Assembly: GCA_018524725.1 (NCBI GenBank)
Contig: JAEUWP010000145.1
Location: 186,001 to 250,000, forward strand
Direction of reading: 5' to 3'
DNA from: Podaxis mareebaensis
Taxonomy: Eukaryota > Basidiomycota > Agaricomycetes > Agaricales > Agaricaceae
DNA: 64,000 nt
Below the pieces are notes generated by a model that had not been told where the DNA came from, made no database searches, and saw only the letters and a list, made by a program, of their open reading frames with translations. The position numbers and the translations under genes were made by a program. This document shows positions 382-59,900 of this stretch, one piece after another. Position 1 is the first letter of the stretch. The number at the start of each line of letters is the position of its first letter.

Positions 382-1731
382 TTACAGATTCATCTCTCTG
401 AGGAGATCCAAAGACGTGTCATACAACTCTTTCGCCAACCTCATATCCTTCGCCTGCTTCGACGGCTCCGTAATTTTCCCAACAGGCTGAAGATGTACAC
501 CCTTGAACGTCTTTGCGCTAGCCTTCACCTCGGGTGACGCAGTCGCGTATGCGGAATTCATGGCCCCTTCTCTTGGGGACACGAAGGCCACCCTGACGAA
601 AAAACGTATGATACCCCGGAACAAATATGACATGCCATCCAGCCATCGGCCAACGTTTTCAGTCGCGACCGAACCCGGGTCGACCGCAATACAGACGATG
701 TCGGCTTTTTCGTCGTCAAGACGTTGTTGGAGGTGTTTAATATGGAGTATATTGGCCAGTTTCGAGAGTCCTATGGGAAAAGAGTGAACATTTCTTGTCA
801 ACAGAAAATCCAAGAACTGACCGTAATACTTCAATCTACCGACAGTAGTGTCTCCATACTCCGTGTTCCAGCTCTCCTTTCCGATGAATGTGGTCGGTGC
901 GACGCCTTCATGGGCAGTCGAGGTCAGCTGAAAAGGTGAATGGGCTGAGCGATGCTGGTTCAACTGGCTCTCGGTTAAGACCTCACGCTAATAATCCGGA
1001 CGTCTGAGCCTTCTTCTTTTGATGTCTTGATCATCAAGGGAAGGAGAGTTTCCGTAAAAATGAAATGCGACAGATAACTGGCCTGAGTCAGTGCCGTATC
1101 TTCCAAGTACACTTTGCACTAACTTTGTAACCATGGCCTCTTGGATACCGTCCGCTGTTAGGGCGGGTGGACCTATCGCCCTGATAAACGTCATGACGTC
1201 ATGAGATGGTCCATTACAGATGAAAGAACCAGGGGACGCACTTGGCCGCGTTGTTAACTGCTCAAGTCAAATGTTTAGCGCAGACTCTCACTCTCAAACG
1301 TAACAACGTACTGAGGATATCCAAGCGATCTTCTTTTCCCAGGAACTCTTGGGCAGCACTTTTTGCAAGTCTGGGATCACTAAGGTCAAGCTTGAGCCAG
1401 TGCACTGAACCATCACCAAGGTTCTCGCTTTCCAAACGCGCCAAGGCTCCTTTGTACTTCTCCTCGCTTCTTGTGGCCATGTATACCTATACACACTTAG
1501 CTGTTGCCTGCGTTCCATTTCATAGAGGTAATCATCCTCACTTTGGCACCCTTCCGAGCCAGGAACTGTATTGTTGCGAATCCTATGCCAGAGCTGTCAA
1601 GTCAAGTTAGATGTCATCGCGTCAGGTTCACTCTTGACCTACTTGCCACCTGTTATGACGACGACTTTGCCATGGAGGTCGCCGAGGTCTTCCTCTGAGA
1701 TTGTTCTCCTAGCGCTGAAAAATAAGCCCAT
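382..1731 (-). CDS. short-chain dehydrogenase/reductase (classical SDR, retinol-dehydrogenase/WWOX-like)
   Basis: NAD(P)-dependent oxidoreductase of the classical SDR family; the substrate cannot be read from sequence. Eight exons can be joined without a frame break: 1731-1643, 1593-1542, 1486-1312, 1257-1242 (16 nt), 1180-1124, 1077-987, 927-822 and 770-382, giving 324 residues. The first intron splits the nucleotide-binding motif TGGNSGIG near residue 27. The NNAA motif is encoded by the 16-nt exon. The catalytic YxxxK appears as YGLSKL across the last intron, and a PGSVATENV segment follows. The length is normal for the subfamily. The start is the first ATG upstream of the Rossmann fold, with a TATA-like element about 145 nt upstream. 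No signal peptide or convincing membrane helix is seen. It appears intact. Confidence 0.9.
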
Positions 1732-1873
1732 GCTTCAGCGACAGCCGTTTAAGATTTCAGGTTTGGTTTGGGAATTGAGAACGTGGAACTTGATGGTCTC
1801 CACTGGAAATATGAGGCTGGGAACTACGAGTCGAGATATTTATGCACGATAGACCACAATTATCATTGGAAGC

Positions 1874-1881
1874 TATATATA
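1874..1881 (-). promoter_or_regulatory. TATA-like box of the SDR gene
   Basis: The run TATATATA lies about 145 nt upstream of the SDR start codon and is the only TATA-like element nearby. Its assignment is positional. Confidence 0.35.
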
Positions 1882-3020
1882 GGGACCATCAACATGTCGT
1901 GCTAGGTACTATGTTAGAACTATTCCGTGCAAGGCGAGCAGGTCACCCTTCTTTCTGCTCCAACTGATACATAAATTGGAACTTTAGGCCTTAACGAGGG
2001 CAAGATGATGTGTAGAAAAGTTGCATATTGTTTCTACCCAGCATCGGATATCTTAGCCTCGTTACACGTGCGAAAAATCTGAAGACTTCTCGGGAGTGGT
2101 GAGGAAAGTCAGTGAATTCTTTTGTGGTGCGACGAGCCACGGGCACAGCCGCTGTTAAGACAATCCATTGTCCAGACGTTCTCCATTTACCAGCCGACCT
2201 ACAGAATTGGCGCACCCACCCACAGCCTGTTGGCACCCGCATGGCTAATGCCATGGTACCCCTAGTTCGGTAAGGATGCCGCCGTATTTTAAGTCCCGCT
2301 CTTTCCAAACATTGCCTATGTCTGACGCCACGTAGTGCGCTGTCATGCTATAGTCAAGAAAACAGAAAGATGATCAAGAGTGGTTGATAGCGCAAGTGAG
2401 CGTAAAGAATGAAAGATACAAGTTCGAGAACCTAAGTTAAGTGCTCCTGTGTCAGATATCATACACTATGTCCATCAGCCACTCTTGAACCCGGGACCCG
2501 CCGCAAGTTCAGAATCCTGTCTACTTGTTATTTCAATCTGGGTAAATGAAAGTTGAAATGTCTATCAACAGTCTGGCGTATAAGTTATTCTCGCTTAACA
2601 TGACACCTCTGAGTATCATTGAGTCCCGCACGCATCGCCAAGTCCCACATCGGGGACCATTTGGTATTGCACTGCCATATCACGTCTGGTACCGCTTCCC
2701 TGCTGCGTCCGGTGCCGCTTAGTGCCACTACACAGCTGCAACCAGCAGCAGTTAACATCGCTCCCCTACAGACTGCTCTCCTCAAACCATCCGTGTCCCA
2801 AAACCTAGTGAAGAATGCAGTCTTACAGATATTAAAAATCTGCCTCATTTAGGATCACTGACTCCCGCAATGCATGTATATTCACGTCCTTTCAAACTGA
2901 CAGATACTGGAACATGATATATGCACTATATGAATGATACCGTAGGCACGACAAAGCAATAAATATGGAGCTTCTGAATTTGCTGGGTCCTGGACTGCGG
3001 CGGTCCGCTGAGACTCGTGA
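1882..3020. other. no recognisable gene
   Basis: Short ORFs occur on both strands, but none has a recognisable motif or splices into a longer frame. Probably intergenic. Confidence 0.5.
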
Positions 3021-10900: not shown

Positions 10901-12489
10901 CCATAATACAACCTTTCCCACTCGCTTAGCAACCTGATTCACAATACTCTATCAGCCTCACGTGCGCGACCTTACACATCATAATATGTGGCTCTCGGAG
11001 CATCTTTGCATCTTCTTCGCATCTTGCCCGCATCCCGTTACGAACGTGCCCGAGACCCCGAGGCTACGCTCTGTTCGTAATATCAGAGGCCCTGGGCGAC
11101 ATGATGACCGTGCCTGGAAGCCTTGTGTTCTGGCTCAACATGAACCCGAGCTTATCGGGTTGGCAACGCCACTAGGTTGACGCAATTGACGCTCACCTCC
11201 TTGAGCACAGGTCTCTTACGTCGATGCAGCGTCATACAACGTTATATGAGAGGTCTTCCGTTCAAAATGCTGCTGAGTTTGGCTGTGGCACGCAACCCCA
11301 CTGAACATGATGTTCCAACCGGTTCGGCTAATCTATAGGATCCATGCCCTTCATCTCGGATCCATATGCTCTTGTTTTAGCGCCGAGCTGCGTGATCAGC
11401 GCCCAGACAATGGTATTCTCCTTCATGAAGACGAAGGCAGCCAACTCTCCAGTGATGTCGGGATGCAGTGTGGCTTTGCCATTATTCTTTGCTTTAATTT
11501 CCGACTTAAGACCTGGAAATTAGTCACCTCATTGTTGATGTCGTTCCTGTGTTGAAACTTAATATCATTCGGGAGACCCGCAGTCCTCCGGATTCATTGC
11601 TTTCCCTTTCTCACGGAGAAAAACCCCATGATAACTTGGGGACGGTAATTCGGCATTTGGCTCTTGAAATTTTACCGTTTTGGGACGGCGGAGAAAATTC
11701 AGAGCTAGTGCTTGCGAGCTTCGCCCATCTTTGTTGGATTTCCGTGATGTAGGCGATGTCCAGTACAACCATATCTTTTAATGCCGTCTCGGGTTTATGG
11801 AACATTCGCCATGGAGTGCTCGCTCAGTGTTACCATCCCGTATAATGTCGCAGTCACTCTTGGTTCCTGACATCTCTGGCGCGCCCCTCAGACCAGGGCC
11901 AAGTGTCAACGGGAAAAGGTTCAGACCATTTCCTGGGTAATCAACCAAGAAGTTATTGTTGGCATTTGGGACTTATATGTTCATACCTGCCCAAGGCTTG
12001 TCTGTTTGCTCTCTTTTACTCCAGGAACATTCATTGAACTGCCACTAGGCTACTAATTCAGGTATAGCCCAGGGGCTCCCTCACCAACAAAGCCTGTCCT
12101 CTTCGAGTTGCAATTAGTGGCTCTTCGTCTTGGACACATGACGGGGGCAAAGGGCACGAAATGTCGGATTTGTCATTGCGGACACAGCGATGCAAGAGAG
12201 CAATGATTTCGGGATTGGTATGGTGTCGGATATTTGAAGGAACAGGTTCACCAGTCCCAACTGTGCCAAGCGACCGTAGAGAAATTATTAGACGAAACTT
12301 CCTCTCGGTTTCCCTGAGCCTCCCCATAGTCCTTAGGTGCCTTTAATAGAACTGTGCCTGAGCCTGGTGTTTCACTGTGACCTATCATCGGTGGCGCAAA
12401 TGAGGTTAATCGTTATGATATAGCCCTCTCCGTGCTCTGTCCAAGGGAGATGCTGGCCAGTGGCGCGCAACACGTTATTTCGGAACCAA
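7977..12489. other. 4.5-kb stretch without recognisable genes
   Basis: The proximal part (about 7977-8300, pyrimidine-rich) is probably the 5' leader and promoter of the heat-shock factor gene. The rest has only short ORFs in all frames, normal CpG frequency and no terminal repeats or domain-like peptides that I can recognise. It could hold decayed transposons, a non-coding RNA or genes with many tiny exons; nothing can be supported. Confidence 0.5.
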
Positions 12490-12497
12490 TATATAAA
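12490..12497 (+). promoter_or_regulatory. TATA box of F-box paralogue 1
   Basis: TATATAAA lies 42 nt upstream of the preferred ATG at 12532. It argues that the in-frame GTG at 12460, which precedes it, is not the start. Confidence 0.4.
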
Positions 12498-12531
12498 CAA
12501 CAAGCGTCACCTAATGTTGATATGTACAATT

Positions 12532-14070
12532 ATGGGAACCAAACACATGCATCCATCATCTCATCCTCGTTGTGCGGAGATGCAGGAGGTCGCCTGTTTA
12601 CAGTGTGGCTCTCGTAGCCAGGCCCCGTCGCGCGAAGTATCCCATAGATCGGTAGAAGAAGAGATCGAGTTCATCAATCGAGAATCCGAACGACTTGACG
12701 ATCATATCCGCCAGCTCTGCGAGAAACGGGCACAACTTCGGCGGCGCCTCAACGATATCCAATCTTCTGCCAGAGTACTGCCGCCTGAAACTCTCTCAAT
12801 TATATTTCAACATGCCTGTGCCTCATCCAACGCTCCCAGCCCCATTGAATATCGGCGCCAAATCAACGTCAGCCCATTAATCCGTTTTGGTGCCGTTTGC
12901 TCGCTTTGGCGGCAAACCGTGTGGTCAACACCTGCGTTATGGACTACTATAATTGCGGATGTTTGCTTAAAAACAGCAAAGTCCAACGTAGCCATCCTTG
13001 ACATATGTTTCCGCAATGTTGGAACACTGCCATTATCCCTCGACCTCTGCTTCCTCGAGGAAGACCTTCTGTCATGGGGTGATACCCCGATCCCCATTCA
13101 GCCCATCACTGATCTCGTCTTCAACAGAGAAAATGCCGAAAAAGTCAGATCTCTTCGACTACAAGATCCCCCTCGTGGGTGGATTCGCCTTCTCTCCAAT
13201 GGTGGATTTGAGAACCTCGAGGTTTTTCAATTGAAGGGCGTTACTTCAGCTGTTAATGGGCTGAACATCACACTACCCAATTTGCCGGGTGTTCATCGGC
13301 TGTCCGTAGGCGATATGTGGCATAACATCACTATCCCCTCGGCTGATACCATAACGACTTTGGACCTCCCTAATACGAGCATTGGTGTCGGCGTAGGAAT
13401 TTTCATCCAGTGCACCAACCTGATTGAATGCCACTTTCATGTCGATAATCCTGACTTTACCATTGAGGGAGCTGCCATCAACTCTCCTGTCACCTTTTCC
13501 CGTCTAACTCGTCTCACGTGGCCGTTTTCTGTCGGACGGAGCAATGAATCTCTTTTCCGTCATATTCGTTTACCTGTTCTGCAACAATTGCGACTCTCTT
13601 GTCCTTTGAGAGACTCCTTTCCTCCAGCGACACTCGATGCGCTACAAGGCTTCTTAAGCCGCCTACCATCGACTCTTTCAGTCCTCGAGTTAGACCGTTG
13701 GTCATGCCCTGGGGACAACATACGCCGGCTCTTCATGCAACTGCCAAGCTCTATCAAAGAGCTATCTTTAATTGACTGCTTTCAGAGCTTCACCCCTAAC
13801 CTCTTGCGCGCTTTGACACCCGAACAAGGAGGAGTGAACAGTCTCCCCATATTAGAGAAGCTGTACATGTCGAGCGTGTTGAAGGCATGTTTACCGTTCA
13901 TCGTAGAGATGGTGGAGAGAAGGCAGGGGGGTGCCAATCCACAGCTGGAGCTCGTGTTGCCGCAACCTATAGGTGGTCATTCGGCTGTGGCTGAGAGGCT
14001 TGAGGCTTTGGCTCGAGTCCAGGGTCGTCAATTCAAGTTGACATACATTGAATCCAAGTCCAGATTGTGA
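12532..14070 (+). CDS. F-box-like protein with LRR-like C-terminal half (paralogue 1)
   Basis: Probable substrate-receptor subunit of an SCF-type ubiquitin ligase. It is uninterrupted, 512 residues from the ATG at 12532 (A at -3, G at +4); the in-frame ATG at 12580 is the alternative. Order: N-terminal CxxCG knuckle (CLQCG), a short coiled coil (about residues 45-80, RQLCEKRAQLRRRLNDI), the F-box core RVLPPETLSIIFQHA, the family segment AVCSLWRQTVWSTPALW, then a long region of irregular leucine-rich repeats. It has the same architecture as the genes at 27877 and 29868. Such families are greatly expanded in Agaricomycetes. The target is not predictable. Confidence 0.85.
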   Translation: MGTKHMHPSSHPRCAEMQEVACLQCGSRSQAPSREVSHRSVEEEIEFINRESERLDDHIRQLCEKRAQLRRRLNDIQSSARVLPPETLSIIFQHACASSNAPSPIEYRRQINVSPLIRFGAVCSLWRQTVWSTPALWTTIIADVCLKTAKSNVAILDICFRNVGTLPLSLDLCFLEEDLLSWGDTPIPIQPITDLVFNRENAEKVRSLRLQDPPRGWIRLLSNGGFENLEVFQLKGVTSAVNGLNITLPNLPGVHRLSVGDMWHNITIPSADTITTLDLPNTSIGVGVGIFIQCTNLIECHFHVDNPDFTIEGAAINSPVTFSRLTRLTWPFSVGRSNESLFRHIRLPVLQQLRLSCPLRDSFPPATLDALQGFLSRLPSTLSVLELDRWSCPGDNIRRLFMQLPSSIKELSLIDCFQSFTPNLLRALTPEQGGVNSLPILEKLYMSSVLKACLPFIVEMVERRQGGANPQLELVLPQPIGGHSAVAERLEALARVQGRQFKLTYIESKSRL

Positions 14071-22184: not shown

Positions 22185-25180
<2,996 letters not shown>

Positions 25181-27876: not shown

Positions 27877-29428
27877 ATGACATCCCCACCTACCATAGCT
27901 CAGAGGTGAGTGCTAGCGAATTTGGTTATTTTCCCCTTTAACCTGCTACCAATTTGATCTTAGTTGTCCGCAGTGTGGTCATTTGTGGCCTTCCGACGCC
28001 GAACCTTCTGTTCCCCAAGTTGAAGGGCAATCTGAAGCAGAGATGCTCAATCTGGAGGTCCTGAGGCGTTGCCTACAAACACGGATGTCGGCCTCATTTT
28101 ATCGACGAAATGCCATCCAGTCGACCACTAGAAACCTGCCGCTGGAAACATTGACTCTCATATTCCAACATCTGGCTGGCCCTGCTATCGACTCGGCTTC
28201 ACTCAAATATATCGACGCAAGTAATTTTTGCAATGACTTAGAGAAGACCAGGTCGATCTTTCGCTGTGCCGCTGTATCCTCGCTGTGGCGCCAGATCATC
28301 ATGTCAACACCGACATTGTGGCAAAGGGTGGTCATGGAAATTGACATCATTACCTTGCGTCGCAACACGGAGCTTTTGCAGCACTGCTTGCGGAGTTCCA
28401 AGACCCTTCCATTGGCTTTCGCCTTGAGCTTTCACCCATTCTTTATCGGAGGAGACTACCCCCAGCAATATTTAGAGGCCTTGGCGCGGGAGTTATTCAA
28501 GGAAGAGAATGCGCAAAGGGTCAAAATGCTCCGCTTGCGTGATCCACCCTTGCCTTGGACACGTCAAATCAACGCCTTTCCGCATCTCAAATGCTTCTCG
28601 TTGGAATTCGTAAATTATCAAGTTGCCTTCAACTTGCTCAATCTTCCTACACTCAGCCAGTTGTCTCTTCGAGGAACCTGGACCTTAAACGGGCTTTCAA
28701 ATGCGGAATCTATAACTGCTCTGGAGCTCGTTAATATGTCACTCAGATGGTGCGTCAGAATCTTTATTCACTGTCCCAACCTGGTCGAATGCCACTGTCG
28801 TTTTCCGATGTACGGCTGTGAGCGGGAAGAAACCTTTGCTTTAACCGCTGGCGCGACCACCACGTTCCTGCATTTGAAAAGGTGGACTTGGCCGCTTCGC
28901 GCTGCTGCCATAAGTGAGTGGTTGTTTAGTAGGTTGGAGATGCCTGTACTCGAGGTGCTTCAACTATACGGCGTTGATGGCCGTGATTGCAACGAGCGCA
29001 CCGTTTCCCTGGAATCTATCATTTCCTTTTTTTCCCGCCTTCCATCGAGTATCTCAACCCTTGAAATGATGAATTTGACTAGGTGGTCCCGTAAAAGTTT
29101 GGTCAAGCTCTTCCGTTACCTCCCTAACCTGAGGTCACTGGCCGTGCGCGATTGCTCAAAGAATTTTAACTGCGATGTTATGAGCGCACTGACACCTGGG
29201 GAAGATTACGACGACGCAGAATACTTGCCGGATCTTCAGATGCTTACCATCAAGACTTCCGCAACGAAACATCTGAATGTTAATGAGATAGAAAAGATGG
29301 TTCGGAAACGGGGTTATGGATCAAAGGCGCTTCGCCTTATAATATCCCGACCCAGCCCCATGATCATGAAGAGACTAGAGGATATTGTGGAAGTTGATTT
29401 GGAGGTTTTGGATAGTCCAACCGGGTAG
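27877..29428 (+). CDS. F-box-like protein with LRR-like C-terminal half (paralogue 2)
   Basis: Two exons (27877-27905, 27964-29428) give 497 residues. The first exon encodes only nine residues plus part of the tenth codon, and splicing creates the N-terminal CPQCG knuckle shared with its paralogues. Then come a helical segment, the F-box core (RNLPLETLTLIFQHLAG), the family segment AAVSSLWRQIIMSTPTLW and irregular leucine-rich repeats. Presumed SCF ubiquitin-ligase receptor; target unknown. It lies head-to-tail with paralogue 3, 440 nt away, so the pair is probably a tandem duplication, although the two differ at most positions. A start without the first exon would lose the knuckle and has no ATG nearby. 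Confidence 0.85.
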
Positions 29429-29867
29429 GGCATCCCCTCCTTCGGATTAAGGTACGTACCCCTAAATGTATCATGGGCCAAGACTCAGTGGTGAACTCAA
29501 CAGTTGACGTGGTACTTCTTCGATGCGCTAATCTCTAAGCGACGTTTGTTACATGTGTCCTCAGTACTTTCGAGAAACTACCAGAGCACTATTAAATAGA
29601 CTGATACTTTATGGATTTATAACCCGCTCGATGGTGCGTCTCGGGAAGCACCTAGTAATCGTCCTCAAGCTTTGCATGTGACAGGAAGGCGCTCCTAATA
29701 CGGCTTTGTCGCACGGTACGCAGCACTACACGCGTAAATCGTGCCATTCCAATGTCCACTCCCACCACCACCGGCGCATTTGCAAGTGAGCGGCGCTTAT
29801 TGACTCCACCAATCATCTAACTGATCGACCTCAGATCCCTTGCGTTTCCTTGCGTACATAAATCAGG
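29429..29867. other. spacer between tandem F-box genes
   Basis: No ORF of note. Holds the 3' end of paralogue 2 and the promoter of paralogue 3; an ACATAAATC element lies about 15 nt before the ATG. Confidence 0.5.
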
Positions 29868-31379
29868 ATGGGCCAAAAAGCGAGAGGTTGTCCACGATGT
29901 GGTTATTCCAAGTCATCCCCTAAACTTGTCATGCCAGTGGCTTCCGAACAAGAAGCGTTGTATCTACAGCAACGAGCCCTCACGCTCGATGCCCAGATTC
30001 AAGACCTGCACCAACAAAGAGCCCAAACACTCTATCAGCTCAATAGCATCCAATCATCGACCAGAGTACTCCCTTGGGAAATCTTGGAAGACATTTTCCA
30101 CCATATAGCCGATCCTGCGGTCGAGCCGACTTCCCTTGACTACTGTCGACAACTCAGATTTCGTACAGATATCGAGAAGTACCGATCGATTGTCCGATGC
30201 GCCAGCGTTTGTTTCCTCTGGCGCAGGATAATTTTGTCGACGCCTGCACTATGGAAGACTTTAGTCATGAACGTCAAACCCAGCACCGTTCCCAGCGACA
30301 GAGAGATGTTGAAGTTATGCTGGGAGCGGTCTGGGAATTTGCCATTGGCTCTTGATTTACATTTCCGAGGAGCTCACGGACGCTGTTGGGACCGTCGATT
30401 CTGGGACGAAATGAGGCCATTGTACGAGGAGGTATTCAAGGGAGGGAGCGTGGGCAGGATTAGGATGTTGCGTCTCTATGATCCACCCATAGTCTGGATC
30501 CGTCGCCTTTGTCGCTCGTGGCTCCCTGGCCTTGAATGCCTCTTCTTGGAGGGCCTGAATGGCTTTAATAACCGTGCTACCCTAGAGCTCTCCAACCTCC
30601 ATGGACTACGCCAGCTGACACTAAGAGGAATGCGGCATATAGATAGGATTTTGCACCCTCACAACCTGGCGGTCTTGGATCTCTTCGAGACGTCAATGGA
30701 CATCTGCATCGATGTGTTCATGCAATGTCCTACTCTCACCGAGTGTCACTGTCGAGCTCCGACAATCCTTCCTTCGCAACATTCCAACATAACTTCTGAT
30801 GCGCCCATGGTGTTCCCGCACTTGAAGACTCTTACATGGTCGCTTCGCGACACCGACGGAAATAGGATGTTGCTCCAGCAGATAAGGCTACCCGCACTAC
30901 AGGTTCTTCGATTAGATGGTGATGCCAACTGCGGCCGTACAATCCCCGTACAGTCTGTTACGCAGTTTTTCCACCATTTGCCGAGCCGTCTCTCATCACT
31001 GGAGTTGGTGAACTGGATGACATGGGAGCCTGAAAGCTTGGTGGAAATTCTGGGTTCGATAAACGACCTGAACGAGTTGATGTTGCGCGAATGCTTCGAG
31101 ACGTTCTGCTTCGAGGTGGTTAGAATGTTAGCGCTAGAAGGCCCCAACAAAAAACCCAGCTATCTCCCCAACCTTGCCCTGCTTTCGATCCAGACGACCA
31201 CTATTCGAAGGCACTTGGGAAAGCTGCCGGAGCTGATGAAGAAGAGGGGTAGCAAAAGGAAGCCCTTTAGACTCGCGGTATCCCGGCCGCAGTTACCTGC
31301 GGTGAGAGAACTGGAGACAAGAGCGGCATCGAGGAATGGTCGCGTTGACCTGAAATTCTTGGACATGTTTACCGTATAG
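29868..31379 (+). CDS. F-box-like protein with LRR-like C-terminal half (paralogue 3)
   Basis: Single exon, 503 residues. N-terminal CPRCG knuckle at residues 8-12, a coiled coil (about 25-60, YLQQRALTLDAQIQDLHQQR), the F-box core STRVLPWEILEDIFHHIAD, the family segment ASVCFLWRRIILSTPALW, then irregular leucine-rich repeats with LPSRLSSLELVNW and LNELMLREC. Presumed SCF ubiquitin-ligase substrate receptor. The start is the first ATG, seven residues before the knuckle, and matches the short N-terminus of paralogue 2. It lacks the intron found at the equivalent place in paralogue 2. Intact. Confidence 0.87.
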   Translation: MGQKARGCPRCGYSKSSPKLVMPVASEQEALYLQQRALTLDAQIQDLHQQRAQTLYQLNSIQSSTRVLPWEILEDIFHHIADPAVEPTSLDYCRQLRFRTDIEKYRSIVRCASVCFLWRRIILSTPALWKTLVMNVKPSTVPSDREMLKLCWERSGNLPLALDLHFRGAHGRCWDRRFWDEMRPLYEEVFKGGSVGRIRMLRLYDPPIVWIRRLCRSWLPGLECLFLEGLNGFNNRATLELSNLHGLRQLTLRGMRHIDRILHPHNLAVLDLFETSMDICIDVFMQCPTLTECHCRAPTILPSQHSNITSDAPMVFPHLKTLTWSLRDTDGNRMLLQQIRLPALQVLRLDGDANCGRTIPVQSVTQFFHHLPSRLSSLELVNWMTWEPESLVEILGSINDLNELMLRECFETFCFEVVRMLALEGPNKKPSYLPNLALLSIQTTTIRRHLGKLPELMKKRGSKRKPFRLAVSRPQLPAVRELETRAASRNGRVDLKFLDMFTV

Positions 31380-32198: not shown

Positions 32199-35100
32199 CT
32201 AATGGCTCTCGTGACTAGGATCGCTAATTGCGAACGAAGGACGGACTTGACGCAGCTGGTTGCGAGAGGATGGAACACGACAAACTGGACAGCGGCGTTG
32301 ATTGGTCAGAACTTTGTCGATGCACCTGTGGTTGTGTCGCAGAGTTAGCACGTCGTAATTACAACAGCAGTTGCATCGAATCTATATACCTATCACAGAA
32401 CAAATGTCCGCAGACAGTCACTACACCCTGTTGCGGGAACTGACGGCAGAGAGGGCAAATAAGCTGGGCGTTCGATGATTCAGATCGTTCTTCGAGGCCA
32501 TCTTGTTTTTGTCGCTGTGCGGGCCAACCGGCGTAGACATATCCCGATTCAGCAATGTCGCCAGAGACGAGGAGACTATGTTCGCATAGCATGCTCTTGT
32601 CTTCCATCGACGCTCCGGAGAGCAATCGTGAGCCAGACCGTAGTGCACAGCCGTTGCCGATCTTGAGCTTGTTCAGCGCGAAAATGCCCCTCGAGTTGAT
32701 GTGTGATACAACCGAACAGTCATCGATGGCAACGTCGTCGCCTATCTGCACGATGTCAATTAGAGGTGTTACAGAGCGAGGACAGGAACAACTCACCTCG
32801 ACGAGGTCAGGTTCTGTCATCAAACCGCTAATTCCTCCCGCAAAAAGTGCACAATTCTTCCCAATAGTCGCACCAAGAGCTCGGTAGAACCAGACAATGT
32901 ACGCGGATCCGTTAAGATGTCCAAGGATACCGCCTGTTCCGTAGCCCTTGTAAAGAAGGCGAGACAATGAGAGGTGCAACTGCCATCGTTGGCAGTAATC
33001 ACTCTTATCCCATTCGTACCTCCCTTCGTGGCGTTCACCGATGACGAGCCATTTGGTTATGATGGCCCAGAAGATGGCGGTGACGGCTTGGATATTGAGC
33101 ACAATGATGAAAGAAATGGCAATGAGGATGTAGAGGACGGACAATCGATACCAGGTCGGCTTGAAAAGATTGGTATGGCCAAGCTGCAAGTGGATGTGAC
33201 GTAGGAGTTGAGCGGCAGCAACAGGACTGATCGACCAGTATGCGGCGGAGACGGCAGTTATAGCCAAGTTGGTTGTAAGGATGAACCAATATGGGAATAC
33301 CCAGTAACCGGCCTTCCCTTCGTAGAATGCTCGGCCAAAGGGGGTGCTGGTAGCATCCTTTTCGCCAAACTCCTTGTCACTCCTCCCAAAGCAGATGGCG
33401 TCACCGTTATCTAGCCTGAAGTCAGGGATGGGTGATCAGTGCCCAGGAAAAACCAACTCACCACACCCCATCCAAGTCGAACCATCCTCATAAACAGTAT
33501 CTCGTTTTCCGAGGGCACCCGAACCCATTACAGTCCGTCGACCAACATGAGATCCAGGAAGCAATACTACCCGGTCAGCAATCATTGCTACAAGGAAGTT
33601 AGACTCGGAATAACTTCAATGTTTGAAGGATCTTTACCTCCACTATCGATGATGACCTTCTTAGCGCCTAACCGATCGTTCGTGAAGATTTCCGAGCGCG
33701 ACCCGAATACGACGTCGTCTCCGATTTCGAGGAGCTCAGGATCAGAGCATTGGATTCCAGAACCAGGCCAGTATATGCGCTTTCCTATCTTCGCCCCCAT
33801 GGCACGGTAGGCAATCTACGATCGTAAAGTTACTGGCTTTGCAACTTCCCATAAACGCAACCACTCACGGAAACAACTTCGTAGTGTATCCCAAGGATGG
33901 AGAACGCTCTGTGCAGTGCATCATGCGAAAGGAGGTTCGAGTTGATGAAACGTCGCAACAACATCAGTTGAGTATAATCCTCGGCCGAGCATTCCTGATT
34001 GAGGCCCATGAGACGTTTGAGCGCGACCCCGAGAACCAATTGAAGGACAGGGGTGCAAATAGCCCGAACAATGCGAGAGAGTGTGTGGTATGCGACGCGT
34101 CGAGGATCGGCGAACCACCAAATCACAGCTTCGAGAGCGTTCAAGCCATCGGTAATGATCTGAACTTCCTTGATCATGAGCCACAGACAGAACATCCAAG
34201 GAATATCTACTACCAATGAGTTTTCGTTTGCTTGAAATTGAGGAGACAATACTTACAAGATATTGCCATGACAACGAAGATGAGTGGCCATGCAACAAAC
34301 GCTTGTAGAGCCCAGTGAGGTCCTGGGCACAATGTGCGATTGTATGCAGCATACGACTTCGATGAGGGTGGGTCATGAGAAGAGGCGTGAGGTCCGTAAA
34401 CAGCACTGTCAGGGATAAAGGCTCCTGGAGCAATGGTCGTAAACGTATTGATGACAGCACATCTTCCGACAACAATATTGTCCAAGCGGAAGAATCCCTC
34501 TCGTTCAACGCAGAAAGCCCTGATATGAGACCTGTCTATGCGGCACCCATCACGAAATTCCAGAAGGTCGTATTCCCCCAGCTTGGCTTTGGAATCAATG
34601 AACACGTTCTTCCCGATCTTGGCCCCCAGCAAGCGATAATAAAGTATGGTCAATGAGGGGTGAAGTGCGAAGAGCCCCTTCCCAGCAGACCTACAGACAC
34701 CTAGATGAGCAGTGGCACATGATGAAAAAGTGAATGACGAACCTGAGACTCTGATCTACAATCCAGCATCGAAGATAATATGTGGACCATCTATGATAGC
34801 GTATAAGTGGCGGTTATAAGTACACTGCAGAGAATGGAACCTACATGCGGTAAGTTCCGGCTTTATACCTTCCGACCACAACCCATTTGAATAAAATAGC
34901 AGCCACAGGAGCGACCGTCCTAACCACTGCCCTTGATACAAGAATTGCTGCCAAGAGTGTACCGAGTTTGACCCAGAAACCTCCGTTGAGGAACTGCGCG
35001 ATGTAAGAGAGAATGAATAGGAGCAGTGACCCTAACAACGTCATCAGTGGTAACGTTTGAGAACGGGAGATAAGTCACTTGCAGGTTAACGCAGCTTTCA

Positions 35101-37951
35101 ATGGGTAAAAGAAAAGGAGAGGGATAGCTTGAATGATCAGGCTAATAGGATGGCTCTGACCGCGCGCCTTCGACTTCTCGAAGGCTTGGTACTCTTGGTC
35201 ATAGTCGTACTCAAACCCAAAGGCAGTCATGGAGGTAGCGGCAGAGTGACGGTTTCGTTCATCCTTATCGTCCACCGATATAAAGGAGCCCTTTGGCACC
35301 TCAGCATCAACGAGAACCGCCATGCCTGCGACGGTACAATTGTTGAAGAGGGCCGAGACTCCTATTTGTGCCCCAGTTTCCTTGCGGATCTGGTACGCTA
35401 GTTTTCCAAGAAGCAGCGAGTTTCCACCAAGGAGGAAGAAGTCGGATTGAGGCGTGATGTTGGCAGGGTCCAGCGACAGAGTCTCCGCCACGAGATCCCG
35501 TATGCGTAATTCCGTTCTCGACATGGAAGCTGAGGTAAACTGAGCAGAGTTTCTTCGGGCCTCTTGGAAATCCGCCTCGCCAGATTTCAGTCGCGCCAGG
35601 GAGCCATGAAGCAGGTAAACGGTTTCTGGGACAAGATATCCATCGATCTCCTGCGCGATTAGAGCTTTGAAGGCCTCCGAGTTCAACAGGCACTTAGGAT
35701 CGACGCTCAGGTATAGCTCCGCTGATCCATCTGGACAGATGTTCAAAGCAAAATCCTTGACCTCTTCCATCTGTCCCAAGAAATGTTCTATCCCCTTGGC
35801 AGATAATGATACGCGAGAACACGGGATCGAGTCGGAGAGGGATGCACGTGGCGATGGTACTTCGGCTTCGAAATGGCGCTGGTTGGCTGGAATTCCATCG
35901 TGGAATTGCGGAAGGCCAAGTCGCTTCGCTAGGTTGACACGAACAGCTTTACCCGTGCTGAAGGCTAGGTTTGGTGACTACTTCGTGTATAATATGCCAA
36001 GAGAGCTCACGCGTTCTTTGGAAGGTCATCCATGTAAACCATCACCGAAGGCCATTTAGATGGATGGAGATGATCACTAACAAGAATATCATCATTATTT
36101 GATTGATATCGCAGATGGCGGACCTACCGGAGGGTATCTTGTAACTGATGGAGCCCAATTCTCGGTTTACCGGATGAGCATACGATTACGACTCCTATTG
36201 CTTCCTGCAAAACATCGTGTTCAACTGCGAAGGCTAGAGTACTCTGTGCATATAATTGATTAATTTAGCATCCAATCAATGGTTTCCATGAACTAACTTT
36301 GACGCGGTCTTTGGCTGCAATCACGATGGCCTCCTCGATTTCGAAAGGAGAAATGACTTCACCACCCTTATTAATGATCTCCTTAGATCGTCCCGTTATG
36401 TATAAGTATCTATTTCGGAACTGTCATTCACTAGGATCAACATTCTAAAATTGGAACATACCCCTCATTGTCCATATAACCCATGTCTCCAGTATTAAAC
36501 CATCCCTCGGGTGAGAAGCAGGACGTGTCGAGCGGCACGCTCCTATCGGAAGAAACCTCATAGCCGGAAAAAGTGGGGAAGCCGCGGACGGCAATGGCCC
36601 CTGTCTGTCCTTGCGGCAACTCACGTTCAATATTGGAGGGATCACGTATGGAGACTTCTGGACCACAAGCGATACCCGAACAACCAGGACGCTCGAGCCG
36701 ATAATCCTGCGGTGGAGAAGCAATAGGCATGCATCTAGAGAGAATGCAGCGCTCTAAGTCCATCGCGGAGATACGCGAGAATTTGAATTATTAACGCACT
36801 CTGTCATGCCGTACGACGGAAGGACTACCGCATTCCCGAAGGTGGATCTCATTTCCAGCGCTAGGGATGGCAGCAATCCGCCTGCTGCGTTACAAATCAT
36901 ACGGACGCGTAAGTCCCTCGCGGCGTTGATTCCGGCGGGACGAGAAGCCAAAATGGCGTGATGAACTGTAGGTGCACCATAATACCTAAGCATGCGTCAT
37001 GAATCATCCGTCTACCCTGAACAGCAAGCATCTCGCACCAAGTAGCTCCAAACTGAACAGCCACATTCCAGAATGCAACGGCATCAAATCCACCGCACAT
37101 GATGGTACTACCCCCAGAAAGAATGGGTGCACATAAGCTTCGTACAAATCCCCCGACATGGAAAAGAGGCATCATATTCACTAAAGCGCATTAAGTTCAG
37201 CTGTGACACCTAAGGGGAACACGGGAGAACGCGACTCACAGTTCACATCAGACTCTCTCAAAGACCAGGACTGCACAACGGCCCACGCGCCAACGACTAA
37301 AGCGCGAAGGGGATATGGAACTACTTTCTTCTTTCCGCTTGTCCCAGAAGTCTGGAGGACTAGGGAAAGATCATCCAGTCCATGGGGCTGGGAGGGCCGA
37401 TTCGGAAAGATGGTTTTCCTGTCCAAACAGGTCATACTAAATAGCCCGGTTGGACCCTCGGAGAGCGGCTCGACGAGGACGACGTGGCATCCAAGGTCCT
37501 CTTGTAAGGATTCCAACCCAAGGCGTTCCACGGAATCTTTCGAGGCGAGGATCAGCTTTGCCCCTAGCCTCTTCGCGTCATCTCGAAGCTCGCTCGGTGT
37601 GCATGACGCGTTCACTGGAGCACAAGTGTGATAACACGCTACTGAGAGCATTGCGACCGCGTTCAGGGGTCCATTAGGGAGAGCGACAAGGACACGATCA
37701 TTCGGGCCGAAGGGTATATGCGCTGGAGAATGTGGCAAAACGAAAGTCGAGATGAATGACCGCAGTTGATCATGCGTGAGAGCTCGTTGTGAGGGGTCCG
37801 GGGCGAGGATTGCGGGTTTTGAGGTAGAACAAAGACAATCTAAGAGCGAGGTGATTCGTGGCGATTCTGCCAGCCGCTCAGCTATCCAGCGACCCAGCGC
37901 GATGTCTTTCGGGAGTGCGGGAGCACGCAGAAAGGCGAGGGGGACTGACAT
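32199..37951 (-). CDS. Pls-type membrane NRPS-like synthetase (A-T-three LbH domains) with C-terminal RING finger
   Basis: Likely activates a carboxylic or amino acid as adenylate, loads it on its carrier domain and transfers it at a membrane-bound module. About 1,650 residues from many exons. Adenylation domain (about 1-560): TSGTSGKKK, YGMTEC, GWFNTGDMGYMDNEGYLYI, RSKEIINKGGEVISP and LPKNATGK, each restored by splicing. Carrier domain: DFFLLGGNSLLL with the phosphopantetheine Ser near 716. Then three hexapeptide-repeat domains, each opening with an RxLGAxIGK-type motif (34.6, 33.8 and 32.9 kb), each preceded by hydrophobic segments. This is the order of Streptomyces Pls and of TIGR02353. 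At the A4 position the chain reads PLFHVGG, as in acyl-CoA synthetases, without the amino-acid-binding Asp, so lysine as substrate is doubtful. The last two exons (junction 32390/32325) complete a C3HC4 RING. The start is the first ATG (37951). A TTG-led extension was rejected. Confidence 0.88.
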
Positions 37952-55800: not shown

Positions 55801-56638
55801 TGCCACTAGCATTCCCATAAATGCTGGCTCATTCCAAGTCTCAAGCACACTGTTCATGTTGCCTACAGTCAAATGAACCCCTCATGCTGATAAATGGAGC
55901 AACTGGGTTACTCTGCAATGGATGTGAAATGAAGACATCCATACTTGTAGGTCATCTCTGATAGACAACCAATACATTAGGTTCAATGGACATATACCCA
56001 TTGAAGCCATCATATCAGAACATAAGGAGCAAAAGGCAGCTACTTGTGTGTTCTTTAGAGGCTCCCTCAAGACACCTCAAATAACTAATTCCTGCAAAAC
56101 AGTCAGGATGGCCTCCCTACCCCAACAACTCTCACAACTACCTTCATAGGGACAAAATTTGCCCCTGCTATACAACCTACACTCCCTCCAAAATTTTCCT
56201 CCCATGCAAAAAGAAGAGGGAGAGGAAGAAGATAGTACAAAGGAGGAGCAGGAGGTGCATACCACCTCATGACTCCCCACACTGAATTAAGGGACTCATC
56301 AATACTCTCTAGTCAGAGAGGCATGTGATGAGTCAATAACTCCAGGGATCATACAATCCATCCAGAGTTACAACAATCTTATGTATGACTGTTTACACTA
56401 AATGATCAACCAATACCTTGCACAACCAATTGAATACCCTGAAGGTTATAAACCTTCATTAAACAAGCTCTCTACAGAAAAAAGCTTGGAACCATATAGT
56501 GAAAGTCACCAATTTAGAGACTTGTTGTCATTCATGACAAATCTCTATGCTGACTTCACCATGAAGGGACTAGGGGGATAGAACCCTGCTACAGATTACC
56601 TATGAATCCTAGCTCTTTAATATTACCTTGTTGGAGAG
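52898..56638. other. CpG-poor decayed repeat DNA with unidentified broken ORFs
   Basis: Plus-strand fragments near 54340-54560 (GLYWDALEDNHHEWMADLG) and 55180-55420, interrupted by stops, probably belong to an old element that includes or precedes the gag relic downstream. No reverse transcriptase motif was seen here. Confidence 0.4.
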
Positions 56639-57865
56639 GTGAAGGAGATGTTCATTTGCCATGTACTTAGTATAGATTGTAGTAAATACAATTGGACATT
56701 CAAGAGTGTCATTATGGCACTCTATAATAGATTCATCAGACTGATGTTAATGTATGAGGCTCATGAGAGCCTCAAAGAGATCAGGTATAATCCCAAAGAA
56801 GGGATTCAATATTATTATGATGCCATCTTGGGATACTCACAAGATATGGCTGTCCATCCCAACAACTACTCCCTCACTGAGACCTTCTTAGAAGGTCTCC
56901 CACAAATCATGAGACACTTCCTCATGTTTGACAGAGGACTGTCTCCTGAGATAAACCAACTTGAAGACTTTACAGCACACACAGCTAATTATGAGAATCA
57001 GATACAAAGCAGTGCCTTCTTCAAGAAGGTACTAAAACCTTCTCAATCACATGAACCATCTGCAGGCTTTTCCAGGAAACCTGCCACAGCTGAACCAAGA
57101 ATAAGGACTGCATGGGTTCCTCATTGTATATCCACAGAGCAGGACTGTATCCCTGCTCATGAGCTAAGGCAATCCTTGAGTACCTTTCCACCAAAGTGAT
57201 TGTCAAGGCCTCCACCTCAGTAAAACAAACCCAAGGCCCAATTTAAACCACAGGTACAGAACAAAGCACCTGTGAAGCAAATCCAAAAAACAAGGCTACA
57301 GAGAAAGGGCCTTGTTACAAGTGTGGAAAATATAGTCATTGGACTCATGAATGCCCAGAGAAAGGGAAGCAACACAGCTATATATAAGTTGCATACACAG
57401 TTATTCCAGCAAATGATGAAGAAGTTCAACAAGAAGTCAAAGAAATTGAACAGAATTCAACATTAGATGACAACACTGAGGTCCAAGAGGAACTAGAGCC
57501 CAGTTTGTCAAATAGAAATGAACTAGTACAAGTTGAAGTCATTGAATCAGACTATGGATCTGATATTGATGACAAATATAATTTCACTGCCATGATTGGC
57601 AATACAGAAGATATTAACAACAAAGACTGCAATGACTTCAATGTCATCAATGCTTTCACTGTTGAACCCAGTGAGAAACCAGACCATGAAGTGAGAGTAT
57701 GTTGCATTACCCTCCATAAAGAGGAGGATAAGATCCTTTGACCCCAAGCCTCCCTCAGTGAGAAACAATGTCTCACAACTCTCATCAGCATCAATACCAT
57801 TGATGCTTGGACACTGTGGGACTCCAGTAGCACAACTACCAGCATCACTCCCACTTTTGCATAAG
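56639..57865 (+). mobile_element. Ty3/Gypsy-type gag and protease relic
   Basis: The frame 56639-57199 encodes a gag-like helical region (FLEGLPQIMRHFL, RGLSPEINQLEDF). A CCHC zinc knuckle (C-x2-C-x4-H-x4-C, 57313-57354) follows in a different frame, showing a frameshift between 57199 and 57313. Further on, in the knuckle frame, LWDSSST at about 57814 sits where the retropepsin active site of Gypsy elements has DSG, so the catalytic glycine is lost. A TGA at 57739-57741 interrupts the frame just before it, as expected from CGA deamination. No reverse transcriptase, integrase or LTR belonging to it was found. Non-functional. Confidence 0.75.
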
Positions 57866-59900
57866 TGGCTGGCATCAGGTTAGTAGTATGTGCAGATGAG
57901 TAGTGAGATCCTGTACCTCCCACCCTATAGGAAGGTGCTGAAAGGTTGGTTGGGCCTCAGGGGTACTCACTCTTCTCAGTAGGCCTAAAGAACTTGAGTG
58001 CTTTATCCAGTTTGGGGAGTAGGTCAAAGTGTCTGCCAAACATGGCATAAGAGCCCACCAATAGGGGATAACCTAGAGTGGTCTGTCTAGAGGGTGTCAT
58101 GTTGCTTCAAGTGATTGGCATTATGGAGCTAGGGGTAGCAGGTTATGCCTGGTCTGCAAAGGACTGCATAGATCAGTCTCTCCATTCATGTATAAATTTT
58201 CCAATGACCCTCATTGTAAAATAGTCTCCTTTGCTGATGATGGACTCATTATAGTTCAATCTCTGTCCTTCAATACTAATTATTATCTTCTCTTACAGGT
58301 CTACAAAGCATGCCACTCTCACCTCCTATCCATGGGCTTCCTACTTGAAGACAATAAGATGGAAGCCTTCTACTTCTCTAATCACCCCTTCCATGACCCT
58401 AATTCTCCTGTCATCATCAATAATGACCTCACCATCCACCTGAAACCCTTCCTCCACTATCTTGGATTCTGATTCAACTACTCACTTACATTCAAAGAGC
58501 ATATTTGCTTTTACTCCATCAAAGCCCTTTCTACTGTCAAGTGCATACACATACTCAGAAACTCCATTCAAGGCCTTTCACCTATCCATAAATACCTCCT
58601 TTATAGATCCTGTGTCATTCCAATTGCTATATATAGCTTTCAACTTTGGTTTAACTACAATGACAGGTATTGAGGCCTTGTCAAATTACTCCAATGTATG
58701 CAATAGCAAGCTGCTCTATGGATAATGGGAGTGTTCTGCACCACACTAACTGGAGGTGTTGAAGCCATTGCCAGCCTCATCTCCATCCAGCTCCATCTCT
58801 TCAAACTCACAAAGAGATGTTCTCTCCAATTCCACACCCTCCCCCCCTCCCATTCCTTAAAACTTCTTACCCAGGATGTTGACCTCCTAGATGCCCACCA
58901 TACCAAAATCAGATCCACAGTGTCAGGTTATGTATCTGATGCCCAACTCATCTCAGACTTGTTCCACCACCTCTACCCTAGCACCAAACCTGGACAGTGT
59001 TTACTGGACCTGTTTAGTGACTGGATCAAATTCTTTGAGTGCTCTGACCCTTTGAAAGAAGGCACTATAGCCCTTCATTTAGCCAACACTTCTTGCATCC
59101 ATGACCTTACCTTCTCTTCCCCTGTCTCCTTTGTAGTCTCCACAGATGCTTCTGTTCCTCTCAACCATTCCCTTTCCATAACATCTGCATTTCTAGTCTT
59201 TAATTCTTCTTCCTCAGACATTATATCCTCCACTATACAGCCATGTAGTGAAGTTCTTTCCTCTGATGCTGAATTGTATGCTCTTTGTTTAGCTCTTTTT
59301 TCATCTATCTCTTTCTTCTCTTCTTCAAACATCTCTTCTATCATCATATTTACAGACTCCATTTCTTCAGCTAAAAACCTTTTTTCCTACAGCCTCCACA
59401 GTGCTCACAAGGACTCCATTGCTGTTGCCCCTCCTCTTTGAGACTGGTTCTCCCTTTCCTTTCTTCATCATGTCCATTTTTGGCCTATCCCATTGTCAGC
59501 AAGGTGGTTGGTCTATCACCAAGCACATACCCTCACCAAATCATTGCAGCTACTTAACAATAAATAGCAGCCCCTCCACACATCCCTTGGGTTCATTTGA
59601 AACCACTATACTTCAAAGTGTCTCTCTCACTGAAGACACTCATGAACAATCCTTCATACCACAGCCATAACTGGCTTCCACTCCAAAACCCAGCCCAGCA
59701 ACCTCTTGAGCCCAAATATGCTAAAGGTGGCACTTGGCTTAATTCTGCACTTGGTAAAAATCCAAACCTATGCACACACTTCACTCACTGTGTCACAAAT
59801 CACATGCCCATTGGTACCTTTAGACAGTGCTTCTTTCCAGGGCACTACATCACCTCCTATCCATGTGGTGAAGCACTCAAAACTCAGGAACATATACTTA

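Follow-up and report, generated by a model that had tools for sequence, protein, structure and literature searches.

The locus raises the question of whether a membrane-bound mushroom synthetase really ends in a RING finger and, if so, what that finger does there. The window (the whole stretch of DNA that was analysed, 64,000 nucleotides of Podaxis mareebaensis contig JAEUWP010000145.1) harbors on its minus strand, from an ATG at 37951 to a stop at 32199, 17 exons that join into one protein of 1629 residues with a single final stop. The 16 introns measure 50 to 65 nt, and the frame is held across all 16 junctions, which were placed by hand from the splice consensus and protein family motifs. 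Fifteen introns are GT-AG and one is GC-AG (35082-35032, minus strand, donor GCAAGT), the latter having been picked to preserve both the reading frame and the residues seen in homologues. The gene model shows a single spliced gene for a predicted membrane multi-enzyme, A(acyl type)-T-[2TM-LbH]x3-RING with a short linker before the RING, and this architecture recurs in mushrooms. Its features are the following.

32199..37951, minus strand: whole gene, 17 exons, 1629 aa (homologue P0001 also has 1629 aa)
35915..37774, minus strand, introns within the span: adenylation (A) domain of acyl-CoA/oxalate-CoA ligase type, residues about 60-550 (Pfam AMP-binding, 1.6e-41)
35318..35506, minus strand: carrier (T) domain, residues 687-749 (PP-binding, 3.2e-11), with the phosphopantetheine serine S716 in LGGNSLL
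34868..35146, minus strand: first transmembrane helix pair, residues about 806-879 (P0018 AlphaFold model mapped to the window, hydropathy)
34306..34867, minus strand: first left-handed beta-helix region (P0018 model and mapping)
33998..34305, minus strand: second transmembrane helix pair, residues about 1032-1117 (P0018 model and mapping, hydropathy)
33289..33997, minus strand: second left-handed beta-helix region, resembling hexapeptide acyltransferases
33037..33288, minus strand: third transmembrane helix pair, residues about 1305-1388 (P0018 model and mapping, hydropathy)
32518..33036, minus strand: third left-handed beta-helix region, better conserved than the other two (median identity 0.70; P0018 model and mapping)
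32470..32517, minus strand: variable linker from beta-helix to RING (median identity 0.22; model pLDDT below 50 over part of it)
32277..32469, minus strand, intron inside the span: RING-HC finger (ligands and Pfam models)
32326..32389, minus strand: last intron, 64 nt, phase 2, interrupting the RING after its fifth zinc ligand and before the sixth
32202..32276, minus strand: C-terminal tail with an L..VRPSF motif (family alignment)

The AlphaFold model of P0018 (mean pLDDT 84.1) contains three beta-helices and six long helices arranged as three pairs, and its RING blocks have pLDDT values of 80 to 93. Mapped to the window, it places three soluble segments among three transmembrane helix pairs, which is the topology of Pls/PosA. 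The left-handed beta-helix fold of the hexapeptide (LbH) acyltransferases is recognized both by Pfam and in the model, the acyltransferase activity being putative. The structural matches shown for the 1102-residue model (VIA-align 2, Foldseek) are beta-helix proteins and proteins with a carrier domain, by itself or next to A domains; a RING chain is absent from the matches listed because other domains occupy the list, and this has no bearing on the RING fold.

The third beta-helix ends in ...GYVYAGWPAQ and runs in frame into ICPLC...CGHLFCD, all on exon 32745-32390, which carries the end of the beta-helix and the linker together with zinc ligands one to five. Past the intron at 32389-32326 (GTATAT...CCACAG) the frame resumes as RCIDKVLTNQRRCPVC and continues to the stop at 32199, the splice connecting ...CGHLFCD-R to CIDKVLTNQRRCPVC. 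The C3HC4 ligands are C1566, C1569, C1581, H1583, C1586, C1589, C1600 and C1603, followed by the linchpin R1604, and their spacing (x2,x11,x1,x2,x2,x10,x2) is the same in 54/65 RINGs of the family. Five Pfam RING models score above their cut-offs on the spliced protein, among them zf-C3HC4_2 (PF13923; 33 bits, cut-off 27) and zf-C3HC4 (PF00097; 32.9 bits, cut-off 21), and two further ones (PF13445 and PF14447) are listed below theirs. A chance pattern is ruled out by these scores and by its position in the family, where it lies in the last fifth of 64 of 152 fetched proteins and never within the first four fifths. The initial annotation had described a complete C3HC4 RING-HC finger fused in frame behind the third beta-helix, and the ligands, the spacing and the five Pfam models of the predicted protein confirm this observation. 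Its view of the fusion as a single polypeptide stands as well: the first half of this two-exon RING shares an exon with the third beta-helix and therefore the RING cannot be a separate downstream gene. It had also held that the RING would be broken without splicing, and indeed the intron-retained frame reads ...CDRYIDSMQLLL and stops nine residues beyond the splice-point arginine. The intron and its branch-like CTAAC (32348-32344) were found as described, its length being 64 nt rather than 63. The window RING was not among the hits when all six frames of the genome were searched with one RING model (PF13920), as expected since the intron cuts the domain.

The synthetase part proved to be different from what had been supposed. 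It had been placed in the Pls family, an identity that the A domain contradicts, being of the acyl-CoA/oxalate-CoA ligase type. At E 1e-30 the domain matches 12 solved structures, all of them CoA ligases of the oxalate, malonyl, coumarate or benzoate type, the best being 6qjz, 5ie0 and 8aff (oxalyl/oxalate-CoA ligases). For the A domain of P0001, amino-acid A domains score far lower, for example 82 bits for 3wvn against 186 for the oxalyl-CoA synthetase 6qjz. The FadD7 model ranks first for the A domain with 203 bits, under its cut-off of 650. The Pls/PosA terminal-domain model TIGR02353 picks out the C-terminal part of the window protein with 175.4 bits, below the cut-off of 423.1, and P0001, P0006 and P0084 are likewise under it. 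An A domain for cationic amino acids was not found, as judged by structure matches rather than by comparison of pocket residues, and an amino-acid A domain with a poly-lysine product is ruled out by the structure matches, the TIGR02353 score and the FadD7 rank. It is therefore not established that the enzyme makes a polyamino acid, or any natural product at all, and the predicted protein is better described as a Pls-like membrane portion preceded by an acyl-activating front.

This composite character is also seen when the protein is set beside known enzymes. The poly-amino-acid synthetases Pls, Epls and PosA have the same A-T front, six transmembrane helices and three beta-helix segments, whereas the window protein differs from them by the type of its A domain, by its TIGR02353 score and by the added C-terminal RING. 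The adenylation domain, which scores 186 bits against 6qjz, is like that of oxalate-CoA ligases and FadD7, with which it has a PLFHV.G motif in common, but here it is fused to a carrier and a membrane acyltransferase-like part. The A-domain lysine K539 and the carrier serine S716 are both kept. Serine acetyltransferase, Vat and maltose acetyltransferase have the fold of the second beta-helix; the characterized hexapeptide acyltransferases are soluble trimers, while the window protein contains three unequal beta-helix copies in one membrane protein. The available text of PMC7179176 gives A, T, TM and C1-C3 as the content of Epichloe Epls, and that of PMC10522769 describes a model of the C-terminal part of PosA with beta-helices and six bent helices. 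A pattern scan for bacterial relatives returned at least 12 distant matches, whose best segments are 23 to 33% identical; they are uninformative.

Three protein searches yielded 152 different family proteins (the best 120 of 761, of 450 and of 1032 hits). A complete RING is present at the same place in 64 of them, a partial or disrupted one in 20 and none in 68, proportions that are not a fair sample of the family since two of the three queries covered a RING. Complete RINGs occur among others in Macrolepiota (Agaricaceae), in Hypsizygus, Psilocybe, Panaeolus, many Mycena and Moniliophthora, all of which we take to be Agaricales, in Athelia (Atheliales) and in Taiwanofungus (Polyporales), the bearers among the 152 including members of Agaricales, of Atheliales and of one genus of Polyporales. 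The protein of Macrolepiota fuliginosa (P0001) has the whole RING and is 87% identical to the window protein over the last 380 residues. The fusion thus exists in other Agaricomycetes, and the homologues are not all devoid of a RING. Given this recurrence in many mushrooms, it looks both real and useful.

The ligands are invariant by construction in the complete set, which was chosen by them. Independently of this choice, the median pairwise identity is 0.54 for the RING (2016 pairs), 0.33 for the tail, 0.22 for the linker (163 comparable pairs only) and 0.62 to 0.74 for the A, T, membrane and beta-helix parts; the RING is therefore kept far above the linker and below the enzyme. Among the 65 RING-bearing sequences, 57 have a loose tail motif, L..[IV][YH]PSF or near, and a C[RH]xFP signature is widespread (F in 59, P in 62) and present also in Athelia and Taiwanofungus. 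The first E2-contact position holds M, I, L or V in 60/65 and the second holds P in 61/65. The linchpin is R or K in only five of the 65, most commonly methionine (24), serine (12) or threonine (10), His in one, and one sequence ends short of it; the window protein and Macrolepiota P0001 both have R.

All the domains are known, and it is their combination that we did not find among the papers listed, as covered by titles and the starts of abstracts with subscription journals mostly missing, which agrees with the earlier statement that a Pls-family enzyme with a RING was not known; database entries nevertheless already show a Pfam RING on these proteins. Biosynthetic enzymes are normally ubiquitinated by separate E3s. 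A RING covalently joined to an NRPS-like membrane synthetase and retained in many mushroom genera may serve to test whether the agent that marks an enzyme for degradation can be part of the enzyme itself. These common mushroom proteins go by database names such as 'acetyl-CoA synthetase-like' or 'peroxisomal-coenzyme A synthetase', which reflect the front end only.

For the role of the RING, we see about an even chance that it is a built-in E3 for the turnover of the synthetase itself. The A domain would activate a carboxylic acid and load it as a thioester onto the carrier domain, and the beta-helix part would pass the acyl group to an acceptor at the membrane. The RING and the ATP-using A domain are predicted to face the same compartment, presumably the cytosol, since six (an even number) predicted transmembrane helices precede the RING. 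It would there recruit E2~ubiquitin, probably as a RING dimer, and ubiquitinate the synthetase itself or a partner in the oligomer, thereby controlling the residence time of the enzyme at the membrane. Self-targeting, picked for proximity, is the most likely, as the simplest use of an enzyme-fused E3.

The E3 activity on which this depends is plausible but not secure from the residues present. The window RING has those of an E3, namely the eight ligands, the hydrophobic L1568 and P1601 at positions to which we assign E2-contact roles, and the linchpin R1604. A profile of 20 family RINGs retrieves E3s best (RNF4, RING2, BRE1, COP1, TRAF6) and also Pex10, although non-E3 RINGs such as BMI-1 are within the same 60 matches shown. 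The RING-HC fingers of BRE1, COP1, RNF4, TRAF6 and Pex10 resemble the window RING in sequence and spacing, whereas most RINGs of the family lack a basic linchpin. RING-HC E3s such as BRE1, COP1 and RNF4 are not known to be attached to any comparable biosynthetic enzyme. In the alignments shown, the linchpin is Arg in RNF4 and RING2 and non-basic in BRE1 (Asn) and COP1 (Asn or Ser). Other linchpins without Arg are Asn in Rbx1, His in Doa10 and Leu in yeast Rad18, Rbx1 and Doa10 being active, according to the available text of PMC7667886; XIAP is an active RING with Tyr, in which Arg is the better residue (PMC12326332, available text). In the available text of PMC11992055, TRIM32 is active with Ser, whereas TRIM6 and TRIM22 have Gln together with a weakened RING core, lack activity and are termed pseudoligases. 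Several observations count against a built-in E3. The RING evolves more rapidly than any part of the enzyme, few family members have R or K at the linchpin and RINGs lacking a basic residue there can be inactive (PMC11992055), and the RING is absent or decaying in several lineages that retain the enzyme, so it is dispensable for the synthetase.

The rarity of a basic linchpin also leads to a second reading, rather doubtful in our view, in which the RING is such a pseudoligase, a non-catalytic zinc-built module for dimerization or docking that holds synthetase chains together. RINGs of this kind are known (PMC11992055, available part). Another dimerizing module, a coiled coil, appears at the same C-terminal place in other lineages: by a crude heptad score devised in this analysis, a coiled-coil-like tail was called in 21/64 RING-less members with a readable tail, in 0/63 with a complete RING and in 0/19 with a partial one. 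By the same crude score, however, the remaining 43/64 RING-less members have neither module, and the E2-contact residues are kept in the family, as is the linchpin R in the window species and in Macrolepiota. A pseudoligase would be a clear example of a RING put to new use in assembly. Charged tails resembling heptad repeats replace the RING for example in P0102, P0104 and P0112, and are found among Trametes, Dichomitus, Gloeophyllum, Heliocybe and Jaapia.

It is unlikely, in turn, that the RING is an active E3 for other proteins and the synthetase its membrane anchor, directing ubiquitination to a certain compartment or to other enzymes that act in its pathway. The membrane position and the predicted cytosolic side of the RING would suit this role, and many RING E3s are membrane anchored, but Pfam recognizes no further known module in the window protein, and its synthetase parts retain S716 and K539. 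We consider quite improbable a self-limiting synthetase in which acyl-thioester transfer and the RING-stimulated transfer of ubiquitin, also a thioester, would be coupled, the load or product state of the beta-helices deciding on degradation. On this reading, and if the RING was gained only once, mushrooms would have retained such a built-in feedback switch ever since Agaricales, Atheliales and a genus of Polyporales last shared an ancestor.

The partial RINGs bear both on the gene model and on this history. Nine of the 20, from nine genera, end one or two residues past the fifth zinc ligand, at the splice point of the window gene (P0002, P0005, P0030, P0057, P0072, P0073, P0075, P0090 and P0122, P0072 being labelled partial at source). 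Twelve homologue tails were compared with the three frames of the last exon (36 comparisons, 500 shuffles each). P0071 (Galerina) has both RING halves around extra residues resembling a retained intron and matches in the normal frame (score 81, 0/500 shuffles), P0015 matches in the normal frame above 500/500 shuffles, and the end of P0003 matches one base off (score 44, 0/500 shuffles, best shuffle 43, a modest margin given 36 comparisons). The other nine tails failed in every frame, for example P0002 (6/500 as high) and P0004 (26/500). The splice-point stops, P0071 and P0003 are most simply taken as missed or wrong last exons, suggesting that the last intron is old and that the last exon of these proteins is often mis-annotated in databases. 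A switch by intron retention was not inferred from the nine stops, because a phase-2 intron starting with GTGAGT or GTAAGT by itself gives an immediate stop. It is very improbable that the RING is a gene-model artefact taken from a separate downstream gene: although nine homologue models end at the intron without the second half, the exon shared with the third beta-helix, the presence of both halves in 64 annotated homologues, the wrong-frame end of P0003 and the two halves of P0071 all speak against it.

Zinc ligands are changed in three other partial RINGs, those of P0015 (Crucibulum) and of P0069 and P0077 (Lentinula), so that the RING seems to be decaying there; the remaining five (P0045, P0051, P0067, P0074 and P0114) end or diverge within it. 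The RINGs of Lentinula P0061, P0069, P0070 and P0077 look degenerate, with CGHYTC in two, shortened loops and the ligand changes of P0069 and P0077, which suggests ongoing loss in this genus. An unrooted FastTree tree (138 rows, columns of residues 700-1542 only) explains presence of a RING, complete or partial, against its absence with no fewer than 10 changes, of which starred branches force 8, and some of the RING-less entries may be misannotated. The C[RH]xFP signature, shared by Athelia and Taiwanofungus, would favour a single gain with repeated loss. In the same genome, a second synthetase copy was not found among the best candidates, which were the only ones scored. The closest relative of RING and tail there is a Pex12-like gene (L020, about 1510-2231, minus strand, with a Pex2_Pex12 match), which at 35% is too weak to be regarded as the donor although no other extra hit extends over the tail; another RING hit (L023, 29%) ends before the tail.

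Some neighbouring genes of the window may be mentioned. Two ORFs at 56621-59441 (plus strand) look retroelement-like by eye and have no Pfam match at E 0.01. Two AAA ATPase ORFs at 22995-24869 (plus strand), the second with an AAA lid, lie about 7 kb from the RING gene; they resemble what we take to be CDC48/p97, the ubiquitin-dependent segregase, and their proximity is probably a coincidence. Finally, three similar long F-box-like ORFs are present on the plus strand (12424-14070, 27917-29428 and 29862-31379), one above the Pfam cut-off and two below; all three have a CxxC near their start, and the last one adjoins the RING gene in convergent orientation.
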